NCBI GenBank assembly: GCA_017445205.1
Contig: JAFSUP010000133.1
Location: forward strand, 1-35,555
DNA: 35,555 nucleotides
Source of the DNA: Synergistaceae bacterium
GTDB lineage: Bacteria; Synergistota; Synergistia; Synergistales; Aminobacteriaceae
Direction of reading: 5' to 3'
Below, piece by piece: positions 5,832-30,229 of the stretch (position 1 is the first letter of the stretch; every line of letters begins with the position of its first letter). The notes under the pieces are model-generated. The model was given only the letters and a program-made list of their open reading frames with translations, had not been told where the DNA came from and made no database searches. The translations under genes were made by a program, and so were the position numbers.

Positions 5832-6302
5832 CTATGATTTTACTTGGAGTTTCTTCAACTTAAATTTTATTTCTTGTCTTATAGTTCCGTCTTCGGCTTC
5901 GTCGTCTTCTATGTCGTAATCCACAAGTTCAAATTGTCCTTGACAATAATATTCATCAGACGATAATTTTATAAACAGCGTGATTGTTTTCCCTTTTTGC
6001 TCGGCTTCTAAGACGGCTCTGTTTCCTCTTATGAGTTCCTGATCTCCGCTTTTGCCCTCTCCAGAATAAATAAACATTCCGTCATCTGTCCAAGTATCAT
6101 GATAAACATAATTTTTGCGTTTAGATTCGGCTGAAGATATTAAAATTACAGATTCGTCGGTGGAATTAATGCCGCGGCCGAACCCCGCTCTTCTGATGTT
6201 AAACTGGTCCTCAATTTCTCGATAATCTTGCCTTCTGCTTGTATCAACGAAGTTGGCTTTGTCGCCAAAAATTTCTTCTAATCTTTCTTTCAGACTTTTC
6301 AC
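5832..6302 (-). CDS. Stand-alone SRA-like domain (ScoMcrA type), putative modified-DNA reader
   Basis: The 156-residue protein starts at GTG 6302, with ggggtg some 10 bases upstream. Residues about 45-130 contain ESVILISS, NYVYHDTWTDDGMFIYSGEG, GDQELIRGNRAV and KGKTITLFIKL. This is the YHD-W-DD-G-F-x-Y-x-GEG-x-x-GD-x-x-x-x-GN-x-A signature I associate with the SRA-like domain of ScoMcrA-type HNH restriction enzymes, which recognise modified DNA. Here the protein stops after the domain and a charged tail; no HNH nuclease (H-x-x-P...H) follows in any frame down to 5640. It may act with a nuclease encoded elsewhere, or sense modified DNA without cutting. It lies beside the recombinase cluster, a typical defence-island position. 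A G9 tract sits in its promoter region. Confidence 0.6.
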   Translation of the reverse strand: MKSLKERLEEIFGDKANFVDTSRRQDYREIEDQFNIRRAGFGRGINSTDESVILISSAESKRKNYVYHDTWTDDGMFIYSGEGKSGDQELIRGNRAVLEAEQKGKTITLFIKLSSDEYYCQGQFELVDYDIEDDEAEDGTIRQEIKFKLKKLQVKS

Positions 6303-25282: not shown

Positions 25283-26413
25283 TTGCAGGACTTCACTAAC
25301 CCGGCGCTCGAAAATTTGATTCAATTAGCAATCGACAGCGGCGCAAGCGACATTCATTTAAGTTCAGGAACGTTGCCGGCCCTTCGTGTTCACGGCGAAT
25401 TAAATTACGTAAAGACGTCGGCAATCTTTTCGCGCGAGTCGCTTGAGAAATTCATCGGCGAGATTTTGACATCAGCGCAGCTTGAACGCTTCAATCGTAC
25501 GGGCGATTTAGATTTTGCTTTCACGTATGGCACACAGAGATTTAGAGGCAGCTTGTATCGCGAGATGCGCGGCGTGTCGTTGACGTTCAGACTTGTCCCT
25601 ACTGTGATCCGTTCGCTCGACGAGCTAGGACTTCCAGAAATTTTGAAAACGATGGCTTACAAACACCGTGGCTTATTCTTAACGACAGGTCCCACCGGTC
25701 ACGGAAAAAGCTCAACGCTCGCGGCCATAATCAGCGAAATCAATCATCAAATTAAATCTCACATTGTTACAATCGAAGACCCGATCGAATATGTTCACAG
25801 CCCGGCACTTTCTGTAATTCATCAAAGAGAAATCGGAGCTGACACAGAAAATTTTGCTTCGGGCATTCGCCACGTCTTGCGACAAGACCCCGATGTAATA
25901 ATGATCGGAGAAATGCGCGACTTAGAAACTATCTCGGCGGCAATTACAGCGGCTGAAACTGGCCACTTAGTCTTCGGGACTTTGCACACTCAGGACGCTT
26001 CGCAGTCTATTGAAAGAATCGTTGACGTTTTCCCGCCTCATCAACAAAATCAAATTAGATTGCAACTTTCTTACACGCTGCTTGGAATTTGCTCGCAGCA
26101 ATTAATCCCGACGCAAGGAGTTAAAGGCCGAGTCTGCGCTACGGAAATGTTAATAGCGACGCCGGCTATTCGTGCTTCGATTCGCGAAGGCAAAGTCAGC
26201 GGGATTAGAAACTCAATGCTAACGGGAATGTCCGCAGGTATGCACACGATGGAACAGGATTTAGCGCGGCTCGTTCGTGAAGGAAAAATTTCACAAGAGA
26301 CGGCCCAAAATTTTGCGTATGACCGCGCAGAAATTGAAAGACTTTTAGGCATGGGCGGCATGGCCGGAATGAACTTCGCGGGCGCGAGTGGCCTAGCAGG
26401 ATTTAAAAGATAA
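25283..26413 (+). CDS. pilT: Type IV pilus retraction ATPase PilT
   Basis: This hexameric motor ATPase of 376 residues powers pilus retraction (twitching motility, DNA uptake). The N-terminal domain has AIDSGASDIHLSSG. The Walker A motif is GPTGHGKSST (about 136-145; His replaces the usual Ser), then the Asp box ESQ-region IVTIEDPIEYVHS, Walker B DVIMIGEMRD and the His box AAETGHLVFGTLHTQDA. The C-terminus ends in a Gly/Met-rich GMGGMAGMNF segment. TTG 25283 follows gaggaga. No other pilus gene is in the window, so partner genes must lie elsewhere. It is followed by the regulatory region of the Synerg-CTERM gene. Confidence 0.95.
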   Translation: MQDFTNPALENLIQLAIDSGASDIHLSSGTLPALRVHGELNYVKTSAIFSRESLEKFIGEILTSAQLERFNRTGDLDFAFTYGTQRFRGSLYREMRGVSLTFRLVPTVIRSLDELGLPEILKTMAYKHRGLFLTTGPTGHGKSSTLAAIISEINHQIKSHIVTIEDPIEYVHSPALSVIHQREIGADTENFASGIRHVLRQDPDVIMIGEMRDLETISAAITAAETGHLVFGTLHTQDASQSIERIVDVFPPHQQNQIRLQLSYTLLGICSQQLIPTQGVKGRVCATEMLIATPAIRASIREGKVSGIRNSMLTGMSAGMHTMEQDLARLVREGKISQETAQNFAYDRAEIERLLGMGGMAGMNFAGASGLAGFKR

Positions 26414-26437
26414 ATTTTTTGACAAAAATTCTTGATT

Positions 26438-26475
26438 TTGATACCCCCCCCATAAATTATAATTTCGACGCGTCG
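26438..26475 (+). promoter_or_regulatory. Candidate phase-variable promoter of the Synerg-CTERM gene, with operator-like palindrome
   Basis: TTGATA (26438-26443) and a perfect TATAAT (26458-26463) enclose a 14-base spacer beginning with eight C (26444-26451). Eleven C would give the ideal 17-base spacer, so tract length could switch transcription. A perfect 10-bp palindrome CGACGCGTCG (26466-26475) covers the expected start of transcription. Alternative -35 boxes (TTGATT 26432, TTGACA 26419) are at poorer distances. Confidence 0.5.
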
Positions 26476-26528
26476 CCGCTGTAGTTGCACAGTGAGTCGC
26501 TAGTTTTATAATCAAAGGGGGATTTTTA

Positions 26529-28255
26529 ATGTTCAAAAAATTTTTCGTAAGCTTCCTTTTTCTTCTATTGTTAGTTTCGTCTGCGTGTGCTGAAGTCGAG
26601 CTGTGGGTATCTCACGATTCAATCGCAAGTATCACGGACGGACACGCGGATTTTTCTGATGCACGTTTTTCTAATTTGTTTTTCACCGTCATTCACAACG
26701 ATACACCCGTAACGAAAGAAAACGCCGCTCTTACAGGCACGATAAATCTTTCTGGTGGCAATTACTCATTCTGGGACGGAAAAAAGATTCAAAAAAAATC
26801 ACCGGGACTGCACAGACTTTCAAATTAGGGCTTGAGACGTGGCTAGCGTCAGGTGGTGATGAAGCGGCCTATCAACTCTTCACGGACGCGGGCGGCGAAT
26901 TTAGAGCTGCAATCGAAGCCGACGGCGGTCTTAATGGCGTAACTGCAACTTGGAATTTTCCTGACGATCCGTCGCTGAACGGTAGTTTTACATTCCCGAA
27001 CTACAAGACCACGCAATATCAGCTTGAAAATTTTGTGCCGTACTTCGAGTTTATTCGTTCAGGTTCAAACGTAACTGGAATTAATTGGCGAATCGTAAAA
27101 GCTTCTGACACTTCGACAGCAGTCGCTCAAGATTTCGGAATGCGTCTTAACACTTTTGAAGTTTGGAACTACGACGAAGACAAAATTCACAACGGCCGCC
27201 CCAGAGCCGATATTAACGCCAACGAAGCTGGACAAGGCACATATACTTTCGATGAGCCGATCGCAGAAGCCGATATATATCGCGTCAGAATAAGATTGAA
27301 AGCTTACGATGAAGCAACAGAAAAAATTTATTCTTGGAACTTCTACGTAGCCGAACAGCCTGAGCTTTATTTATGGCCTTATCACGCGTCAGAAACGTCG
27401 CTCGTCAATGGCAAGTCCGATTACAGCAACGCGAAATTTTCATACGTCGCCTTCTTGATTGAAAATAAAAATCCCGCGATATGTGAAGAAAAACATTTCA
27501 CGGACGCAGGACGTGTTACAATCCCGGGCGGCGGCTACACATTGAAAAATTTTGAAACAGGCGAAACGCTCAACACCGTAGCGGGTGACACAACTTTCAA
27601 ATTAAAATTTGATGATGAAGGCGCGATCGGCGATGAGTATATCGAATATTGGCCCGTCGATGACAGCGGAACAGATTTAGTTTTCGCAGGCGGTGCAGAA
27701 ACCGGTCTCAACGGAAAAACCATAACTTGGACTTTACCCGCCGAATTAAACTTAAATGGAAACGGCGTAATCCCGACTCACAAAACCACAGCGGCGCAAC
27801 TTGAAACAGGCGTCCCTTATATCGAACTCGTGAGCGCAGACGGATATATCACAGCTGTGAATTATAAAATCGTGAAGTCGTCGGACACTTCGACCGCAAT
27901 AACGCCTTCTTACGATACGGACTTCAGAATTTATCTTGACCGTGCAACCGGTCGGGACGTTTGGGCAAATACTTATCGCTCAAGCTGGTTAAGAAAAACC
28001 GCTTCGGGAACTTATACATTGGACATTCCGCAGCCCGTTGACAACGTGAAAAGAATGCGCGTGAGATTGCGTTCCTATGAAGACGCTTCAAGCCCTGCTG
28101 TTCATCAATGGAGCTTCTATCCTGCCGCAGCTGACACTGAAGAATCGCCCTCAAACGACAACAACACTAACCCCGGTTCATCGAGCGGAGGCTGCAACGC
28201 GGGCGTGACTCTCTTTAGTTTGGCAGCACTTGCAATTTTGAAAAAGAAATCATAA
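26529..28255 (+). pseudogene. Synerg-CTERM surface protein with two repeat domains, frame interrupted at an A8 tract
   Basis: The first frame (ATG 26529 after aaaggggg) gives a signal peptide MFKKFFVSFLFLLLLVSSAC and mature AEVELWVSHDS, then stops at 26826-26828. The continuation (KITGTAQTFKLGL...) is in another frame, joined at A8 (26791-26798). With one more A the product has about 575 residues. The body repeats a beta-rich unit: VSHDSIASITDGHADFSDA in unit one, PYHASETSLVNGKSDYSNA in unit two, each ending in a VPYFEF- or VPYIEL-type block. The C-terminus is a Ser/Asn linker, SSGGCNAGV, a hydrophobic helix and KKKS, matching the Synerg-CTERM sorting signal. It is probably processed and anchored at the surface. 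Function unknown; adhesin or S-layer-like are options. The A8 tract may be a switch, a slippage site or a sequencing error. Confidence 0.75.
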
Positions 28256-28294
28256 AACAAAAGCAGTAATATTTTTTTTCATAACTGTGTTATT

Positions 28295-28339: not shown

Positions 28340-29125
28340 ATGTTCAAACGTATTATAACAGCCGCGCTTCTCGTTTCATTGTTTGCGGTCCCGGCTTCCT
28401 CTCACGAACTCACGATTAAGAACGTCAAGGGCGACGCTCCAAAAGCTGGCGAGCCATTCGAACTTACTGTTCAATCTGCTCACAAGTTCATAGTCCCAGA
28501 AGAAGTCGAAATTCTTTCACGCGTCAAAGCCGGAATCATTGAGGACGGAAAATTAATCGAGGCCGAACTTAAGGGCAATGACCCAAAACTCTGGATCGAC
28601 TTCACCGTAACGCCGAAGGATTTATCAGGCTCATTTATCGTAACAGCAATTAAAGACGGCGAGTCGTGGTGCCTAACTAACGAGGGCGGAAAATCAGGAG
28701 CAAGAAAAGATTTAGAAGCTCAAGGTCTGAAAGTCTTATCGGCGAACAAATATGACAAATACGCGAAGGCAATCTTCAATGCGTCAACCGAAGATAAAAA
28801 TTTTGCGCAAGTTTTAGGACAGCCGCTTGAAATTATTCCAGTTACAAATCCTGCGGACGCTAAAGTCGGCGAATACTTCGACGTAAAAATTTTATTGAAC
28901 GGTCAGCCTTACACCGGGCCTGTATGGGCGAGCTACGACGGTTTTGTAACTGAATACGAAAACACTTACGCTTATTACACCGAAGCCGAAAACGGTGAAG
29001 CTCACGTGAAAATCACCGCGCCAGGTTGGTGGGGAATCAGAGCGGCTCAATCAGGCTTGCCCGGCGTCGAAGGCGATTATGACAATTTGAACTTACGCGC
29101 GTTCTTGTTATTTGAAGTTAAATGA
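28340..29125 (+). CDS. nikK: DUF4198 / NikK-like periplasmic component of a nickel/cobalt ECF transporter
   Basis: From ATG 28340 the protein has 261 residues; an earlier TTG at 28322 lies inside the Shine-Dalgarno and is not a start. MFKRIITAALLVSLFAVPAS is a signal peptide. Cleavage near SS-HE would leave His close to the mature N-terminus, apt for metal binding. The body is beta-rich with two immunoglobulin-like halves (APKAGEPFELTVQSAHKFI and AKVGEYFDVKILLNGQPYTG), typical of DUF4198, which includes the NikK accessory proteins. It ends by ATGA overlap with the NikL-like gene and leads an operon with CbiM, CbiQ and CbiO. The metal, Ni or Co, is not certain. The hairpin before it probably controls the operon. 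Confidence 0.75.
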   Translation: MFKRIITAALLVSLFAVPASSHELTIKNVKGDAPKAGEPFELTVQSAHKFIVPEEVEILSRVKAGIIEDGKLIEAELKGNDPKLWIDFTVTPKDLSGSFIVTAIKDGESWCLTNEGGKSGARKDLEAQGLKVLSANKYDKYAKAIFNASTEDKNFAQVLGQPLEIIPVTNPADAKVGEYFDVKILLNGQPYTGPVWASYDGFVTEYENTYAYYTEAENGEAHVKITAPGWWGIRAAQSGLPGVEGDYDNLNLRAFLLFEVK

Positions 29126-29643
29126 AAAAAAATTTTCTTAGCCGCACCCTCAACTCTCCCCCCCACCCACCCGAGTTTCGGGCGCGGCTCTTCTTGTTCA
29201 TCGCGATGTTATTTTTTATAAGCGAAAATCCCGGTTTTGCTCACGGAGTGGGCTACCGGGAAATTTCATTAAAGGCCGTGCCGCTGGAATTTTTTTATTC
29301 GACGGGCGAGAAGATGAGCTATTGCGAAACAAAAATTTTTTCACCGAGTGATTCAAAATTCGCAGCACAATCCGGACGCACCGACGAGCAGGGGAGATTC
29401 TCTTTCATTCCTGACGCGTCTGGTGAATGGCGGGCGATCGTTCGCGATAATGAAGGCCATCAATGCGAAGCAAAAATTAACATCACCGAAGAATTTTTGA
29501 AATCAGAAAACGAAATCGAAAACGTTGAACAAAATCACGAAAACGACGCGCCCGAAGGTTTTGAATTATTCATTCGCGCATTGCTCGGCGTGAGTTTGAT
29601 TTTTAATTTTGCATTATTAATAAAAAGCCATGCACATAAGTGA
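29122..29643 (+). CDS. nikL: NikL-like (CbiL-like) membrane accessory protein
   Basis: The 173-residue protein has an N-terminal membrane segment (LFLFIAMLFFISENPGFA) followed by HGVGYREI, a beta-sandwich with MSYCETKIFSPSD and GRTDEQGRFSFIPD-type motifs, and a C-terminal transmembrane helix (LLGVSLIFNFALLI). This is the plan of NikL/CbiL accessory subunits, whose His-Gly start is near the metal path. It overlaps nikK (4 bases) and cbiM (14 bases). Odd: codons 8-23 (RTLNSPPHPPEFRAR) are translated from a G-rich palindromic repeat with a C7 run, so the N-terminus before the helix is an insertion. A shorter form could start at ATG 29206, though without a good ribosome site. Confidence 0.7.
   Translation: MKKNFLSRTLNSPPHPPEFRARLFLFIAMLFFISENPGFAHGVGYREISLKAVPLEFFYSTGEKMSYCETKIFSPSDSKFAAQSGRTDEQGRFSFIPDASGEWRAIVRDNEGHQCEAKINITEEFLKSENEIENVEQNHENDAPEGFELFIRALLGVSLIFNFALLIKSHAHK
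29140..29191. repeat. G-rich palindromic repeat, copy 2, inside the nikL-like gene
   Basis: AGCCGC (29140-29145) pairs with GCGGCT (29184-29189). Read on the minus strand the unit has AGAGCCGCGC and GGGTGGGTGGG in the same order as copy 1 at 9142-9170. It includes a C7 run (29158-29164) in coding sequence. Four G-runs on the minus strand could form a quadruplex. Confidence 0.5.
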
Positions 29644-30229
29644 AGGAATTTTATCGACGCAAATTTTAATCACAGGCTGGGCAGGGACTTGCGCGGGGGT
29701 TGCTCTTGGCCTAAAAAAAACTTCAGATTATAAAATCGTCCGTACTGCGTTGCTTGCGTCAACGTTTTTTCTTGCGTCGCTCGTGAATGTCCGAATCGGC
29801 CCCGGCTCGACTCATTTGTCTTTCATTGCGCCGATGGGATTAATTTTAGGCTGGGGAGCTTTCCCGGCGATTTTCGTTGCGTTATTGCTTCAAGCAATTT
29901 TATTTCACTTCGGCGGCTTGCTAGTTCTTGGCGCTAACACGTTCGCAATGGCTTCGCCGGCGCTTGTCGTTTATTTAATTTTTGGAAAATCAATTCGCGA
30001 GTCTCAAAATAAAATTTCAGTGATGACTCTCTCATTCATAGCCGGAGCTTTGGCCGTGATTATGGGAGCGTCAATCGCGGGAGCGTTTTTAGGCTTGACG
30101 GATAAAAATTTCTTAACTGCCATAAAATTATTATTAGCCGCTCATATTCCGTTGGCTCTGATTGAAGGAGCCGCGACAGCATTTTTAATTACGTGGCTGA
30201 AAAAGGCCGCACCGGAGTTTTTAAAATGA
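29630..30229 (+). CDS. cbiM: CbiM/NikM substrate-binding membrane protein of a nickel/cobalt ECF transporter
   Basis: The 199-residue integral membrane S-component starts MHISEGILS, the invariant N-terminus in which the amine, His2 and a further His bind the metal. RIGPGSTHLSFIAPMGLILG (His near residue 66) and the helix pattern of six to seven segments complete the CbiM/NikM family picture. It is encoded between NikL and CbiQ with overlaps on both sides (14 bases and ATGA). Ni2+ or Co2+ uptake would serve cobalamin enzymes, hydrogenase or urease; the target enzymes are not in the window. The NikK/NikL partners favour nickel. Confidence 0.92.
   Translation: MHISEGILSTQILITGWAGTCAGVALGLKKTSDYKIVRTALLASTFFLASLVNVRIGPGSTHLSFIAPMGLILGWGAFPAIFVALLLQAILFHFGGLLVLGANTFAMASPALVVYLIFGKSIRESQNKISVMTLSFIAGALAVIMGASIAGAFLGLTDKNFLTAIKLLLAAHIPLALIEGAATAFLITWLKKAAPEFLK

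Follow-up and report, generated by a model that had tools for sequence, protein, structure and literature searches.

A C8 tract in the spacer of a putative promoter upstream of a Synerg-CTERM-type gene: a candidate phase-variable promoter in a Synergistaceae genus

A run of eight C residues lies in the spacer of a putative sigma-70-type promoter upstream of a Synerg-CTERM-type secreted-protein gene in the stretch of Synergistaceae DNA analyzed here (35,555 nt; referred to below as the window). We think that this C8 promoter probably belongs to a class of phase-variable promoters with a homopolymer in the spacer, through which slippage would vary the expression of surface proteins. The class looks phase variable in the manner of Neisseria meningitidis porA because the search patterns found no match in the controls, because it is associated with Synerg-CTERM genes, and because the tract differs between sister species at one such promoter. 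The strongest competing explanation is a promoter type that does not switch and has a C-rich spacer of 20 bp.

The C8 site and the gene downstream

The genome assembly to which the window belongs as contig 103 (G000) comprises 1.92 Mb in 133 contigs and is 80% complete. The C8 site sits within the 115-bp gap between a PilT/PilU-family ATPase gene (pilT; positions 25283 to 26413, plus strand; TIGR01420, E = 1.8e-131, above the cutoff), which bounds the intergenic region on its 5′ side, and the Synerg-CTERM-type gene (26529 to 28255, plus strand). From 26438 to 26463 the plus strand reads TTGATA, CCCCCCCC, ATAAAT, TATAAT, and this match of TTGATA, C8, and TATAAT is unique within its own genome. 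An earlier note on this DNA had described precisely this arrangement, counting the eight C's and ATAAAT as a 14-base spacer, and its description is exact.

That note took TTGATA (26438 to 26443, plus strand) as the −35 element. TTGATA is the better hexamer but lies only 14 bp from the −10 hexamer, TATAAT (26458 to 26463, plus strand), and would be a possible alternative −35 were the tract longer. The −35 hexamer that we prefer, which the earlier note missed, is TTGATT (26432 to 26437, plus strand), which is weak but gives a spacer of 20 bp, the most frequent length in the poly-C class described below. The C tract itself (26444 to 26451, plus strand), the candidate slippage site, begins after a 6-nt gap from TTGATT, slightly outside the 1 to 5 nt of the class, and the ATAAAT preceding the −10 hexamer resembles the ATAACG or ATAAAG of class members. 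With either hexamer, a pure homopolymer stands between a recognizable −35 and a recognizable −10 element, as in promoters of the porA type. The standard sigma-70 spacer is 16 to 18 bp, and a generic scan for sigma-70 promoters and terminators omits the C8 site because 14 and 20 bp both fall outside that range. On the opposite strand, the poly-C at this site has no good −35 element, and an Rfam search of the window gave no match.

Tracts of at least eight C's are overabundant in the source genome, with ~25 maximal tracts (43 overlapping 8-mers) against ~6 expected from the dinucleotide composition of the window, an ~4-fold excess. The pattern TTGA..C8..TATAAT occurred in 0 of 300 shuffled windows. 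Together with the recurrence of the pattern in related species described below, these sequence counts indicate that the arrangement at the C8 site is not a product of chance. The window also holds a second promoter-like homopolymer site, again missed by the earlier note, on the minus strand (6401 to 6370), which consists of TTGAGA, a 20-bp spacer ending in G9, and TAAAAT; it lies 67 nt before the GTG start of a hypothetical gene (5832 to 6302, minus strand) that has GGGGGTG as its ribosome-binding site.

The gene downstream of the C8 site starts with an ATG at 26529, preceded by a ribosome-binding region (AAAGGGGG, 26511 to 26523, plus strand), and encodes a predicted signal peptide, a repeated domain, and the C-terminal sequence GSSSGGCNAGVTLFSLAALAILKKKS. 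Its product would therefore be surface exposed, as predicted from the signal peptide and the CTERM tail. Like members of the Synerg-CTERM family (TIGR04564), it has a signal peptide and a C terminus built of GC-x-x-G, a hydrophobic stretch, and a basic tail, and this motif is visible by eye and common to the homologues; unlike those members, it scores below the curated cutoff (17.3 versus 22.5 bits; E = 0.0038). Furthermore, the frame is broken at an A8 tract (26791 to 26798, plus strand), also missed by the earlier note: frame 1 stays open to 26828, and homology resumes in another frame, in which coding continues to 28255. The assembled allele would yield no full-length protein even if transcribed, since the frame is broken at A8, although a read or assembly error at that position is possible. 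Homologues in congeneric genomes, with protein identities of up to 69%, are intact there. No related solved structure was found.

The segment from 26414 to 28280 (plus strand; right edge approximate) is missing in the closest relative, G039, an absence that the earlier note did not record. There, a DUF4198 gene directly follows pilT, the neighboring genes align at 94 to 95%, and the whole gene is missing together with its promoter. This adjacency of pilT and the DUF4198 gene implies that the gene is an accessory unit, present or absent, that carries its own promoter. In the window, the DUF4198 gene is followed by NikL-like and CbiM-type nickel/cobalt uptake genes (29122 to 30229).

Homologues of this gene family have a poly-G tract just upstream in seven genomes, G005, G007, G016, G019, G035, G038, and G039 (loci L137, L139, L140, L141, L218, L219, and L220). 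The closest homologues (in G041, G010, and G023) have no homopolymer promoter, which we count against the phase-variable reading. Homologues without a homopolymer have a common leader upstream (at L003, L006, L009, and L010), in which CCACAAG-type repeats stand in tandem and a hairpin resembling a terminator immediately precedes the start codon; this arrangement may be an attenuator.

Homopolymer-spacer promoters in related species

In 43 congeneric genomes, each from a different species, the pattern TTGA..C7+..TATAAT gave 35 matches (~32 distinct promoters), and the reversed control gave none. The poly-G form, TTGAC..G7+..TANNAT, has ~32 distinct sites in the genus, again with none in the control, so that the two forms together amount to about 60 switch-like promoters in related species. 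We define the poly-C class here by a TTGAC-type −35 element, a tract of C7 to C15, TATAAT, and a spacer of 19 to 21 bp, a range within which the window site falls at 20 bp with TTGATT. The stricter TTGAC form of the poly-C pattern, which misses the window site because the −35 element there is TTGAT, gave 28 matches in the congeners versus 3 in the remaining 145 genomes of Synergistota, and those 3 carry different flanks. The poly-C class thus appears to be largely restricted to the genus. A search of viral contigs gave four matches to the class pattern.

Flanks are partly conserved in the class, with ATAACG before TATAAT, and where genes could be called, their starts lie mostly 30 to 80 nt past the −10 element and have a ribosome-binding site. 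The genes concerned encode Synerg-CTERM proteins, putative lipoproteins, small secreted proteins, a glycosyltransferase, and a NeuD-type sugar acetyltransferase. The earlier note had argued that a cell-surface protein is just what such switches control, and the genus bears this out: by a pattern of our own for the C-terminal signal, 10 of 37 ORFs behind class promoters are Synerg-CTERM ORFs, versus 3 of 277 other ORFs at the same loci (Fisher's exact test, P = 3e-8). A few poly-G loci had entered this comparison because they hold homologues of the window gene, but nearly all poly-G matches were covered. One of the three control CTERM ORFs (L139) also lies behind a poly-G promoter, its start having been called too far upstream. 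As judged from predicted ORFs, the link between the class and Synerg-CTERM surface proteins is strong. Signal peptides were predicted for 16 of 35 proteins behind class promoters and for 2 of 13 behind plain promoters, a difference that is suggestive only and not significant (P = 0.09).

The spacing of the poly-C class is distinctive. Among 145 listed TTGACA..TATAAT sites of plain promoters in six genomes (G001 to G006), spacer length peaked at 18 bp, with 68% of sites at 16 to 18 bp and 9% at 19 to 21 bp, whereas 28 of the 32 poly-C spacers measured 19 to 21 bp and 18 of the 32 exactly 20 bp (Mann-Whitney test, P = 2e-9). One poly-C spacer is an outlier at 11 bp, and the 14 bp from TTGATA is otherwise outside the range of the class. 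Tract length and flank length compensate for each other (r = −0.56; permutation P = 9e-4), the variance of the whole spacer is 3.5 versus 8.2 predicted from its parts, and where a T or an A interrupts the tract, the spacer still measures 19 to 20 bp. The compensation, together with the spacing kept by interrupted tracts, implies that total spacer length is constrained. Poly-G spacers are spread over 15 to 21 bp, and the difference in spread from the poly-C class is borderline (P = 0.06).

Variation in tract length was found between sister species at a class promoter other than the window C8 site, in the one close pair compared. Locus C112 of the source genome and its orthologue in G039, locus C140, align over 1,788 bp at 94.4% identity with a single 3-nt gap, which lies inside the G tract and changes the distance from TTGACA to GATAAT from 15 bp (source genome) to 18 bp (G039). 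The gap consists of two G's and one T and is therefore not a pure G slip. Within G042, promoters of similar build range from G7 to G13, with spacers of 15 to 21 bp.

The source genome also has coding homopolymers, within genes or close to where genes start (L018, C8; L019, G9; L149, G8; L152, C9). Some are out of frame with the long ORF and others are in frame (L026, L028, and L042), and they are candidate coding contingency loci. Tracts of at least eight C's are mostly preceded by TA (19 TACCCCCCCC versus 1 CCCCCCCCAT in the source genome, for example at L018, L042, L025, and window position 26442), and the same preference holds across the genus (431 versus 110), in promoters and coding regions alike; the −10 box that follows poly-G accounts for only part of it. 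We rejected the idea that the recurring TACCCCCCCC marks the terminus of a mobile element, as its flanks are not shared beyond a few bases. At several loci (C9 and C123 of G008, C44 of G003, C57 of G009, and C93 of G006), poly-C is followed within a few bases by a recurring GTAATTTTACG-like stretch, and at similar loci of different species these tracts range from 9 to 13 C's.

Slippage, fixed spacing, or decay

In the mechanism that we favor, the Synerg-CTERM-type gene would be transcribed from the sigma-70-type promoter whose spacer holds the C8 tract. Slipped-strand mispairing would alter the length of the tract and with it the distance from −35 to −10, and as a result of the changed spacing, cells may differ in their expression of the surface protein, as they do with Neisseria porA. 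The A8 tract in the coding sequence breaks the frame and leaves the assembled allele off at the level of translation. The earlier note had proposed a candidate phase-variable promoter whose tract is set short (OFF or weak) and would be restored by C10 to C12. The general proposal gains from the genus-wide class, the CTERM link, and the tract difference between sister species elsewhere; the proposed setting has to be given up, as the poly-C class has spacers of 19 to 21 bp and TTGATT with C8 already gives 20 bp, whereas C11 with TTGATT would give 23 bp, out of register. Because its spacer with TTGATT equals the poly-C mode, the C8 tract is more likely to be active than to represent a short OFF setting.

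The tight 20-bp spacing nevertheless counts against switching, because the same would be seen with a stable, nonswitching promoter type whose C-rich spacer is 20 bp long and whose C run, of fixed length, serves DNA shape or a bound regulator. Such a promoter would account for poly-C spacers tighter than their parts predict, for interrupted tracts that keep the spacing, for the partly conserved flanks, and for a mode of 20 bp in a genus whose plain promoters peak at 18 bp. We still consider it unlikely, though deserving of serious attention, because the poly-G promoters of the same genus, in front of the same kind of gene, are spread over 15 to 21 bp and because the sister-species pair differs by 3 bp in the tract only. 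Moreover, point mutation erodes long pure runs that are neither renewed nor selected, and a link to surface proteins is in keeping with contingency genes.

The broken frame at A8 and the absence of the gene from this place in the closest relative could also mean that an accessory gene, inactivated by the frameshift, is decaying and that the C tract is the relic of a once-functional promoter. This seems to us quite improbable, as the 1.7 kb holds one frame break only, with the remaining frame, the ribosome-binding site, and the C-terminal signal intact. The run of eight A's is itself prone to slippage, and porA variants arise in this way, through a tract going from 7A to 8A (PMC3639595); the possible assembly error at A8 weakens the case further. 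It strikes us as very unlikely that the tract is unconnected with transcription of the gene and that the promoter lies elsewhere, with transcription arising, for example, by read-through from pilT or at a second TATAAT near the start codon. The weak −35 element of the proposed promoter would favor it, but the second TATAAT sits too near the ribosome-binding site and lacks a good −35 element, the C8 arrangement recurs across the genus with no matches in controls, and the gene is an accessory unit with its own upstream region.

Beyond the reading of the C8 site as a member of a phase-variable class, a wider picture can be sketched that, taken whole, we regard as speculative and rather unlikely. 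The genus would vary its Synerg-CTERM surface proteins through an extended set of homopolymer-spacer promoters, with the poly-C branch working at 20 bp, ~2 bp past the norm of the genus, because a dC·dG tract alters spacer geometry, and some novel process would seed the tracts preferentially beside a TA step.

Known systems and implications

In Neisseria opc and fetA and in Bordetella fim, tract length tunes the transcription of surface proteins. The same is described for Helicobacter sabA, which has tracts both in its promoter region and within its coding region. These systems, compared by description and not by sequence, belong to other phyla and have their tracts at other positions. N. meningitidis porA is closer to the window site, with a homopolymer (poly-G) in a sigma-70 spacer and a surface protein as the product. 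Switching has been observed for porA (9G, 10G, and 11G variants), whereas here we infer it, and, unlike porA, the Synergistota genus has poly-C spacers centered on 20 bp, dozens of such promoters, and a link to Synerg-CTERM proteins. Within the accessible parts of the literature that names Synergistetes together with phase variation, no source appears to concern homopolymer promoters, and PMC5903667 deals with DNA inversions. A literature search for the term Synerg-CTERM found no paper.

If the phase-variable reading is correct, contingency promoters built on simple sequences, which are familiar chiefly from human pathogens, would extend to a rumen-associated, uncultured Synergistota lineage, where they would form a promoter set the size of a regulon tied to one surface-sorting signal. 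The 20-bp rule of the poly-C promoters would open the influence of spacer geometry on sigma-70 promoters to direct tests. The set would also give a reason for cell-to-cell variation of the surface in a gut commensal, which may serve the avoidance of phage, protozoa, or competitors.
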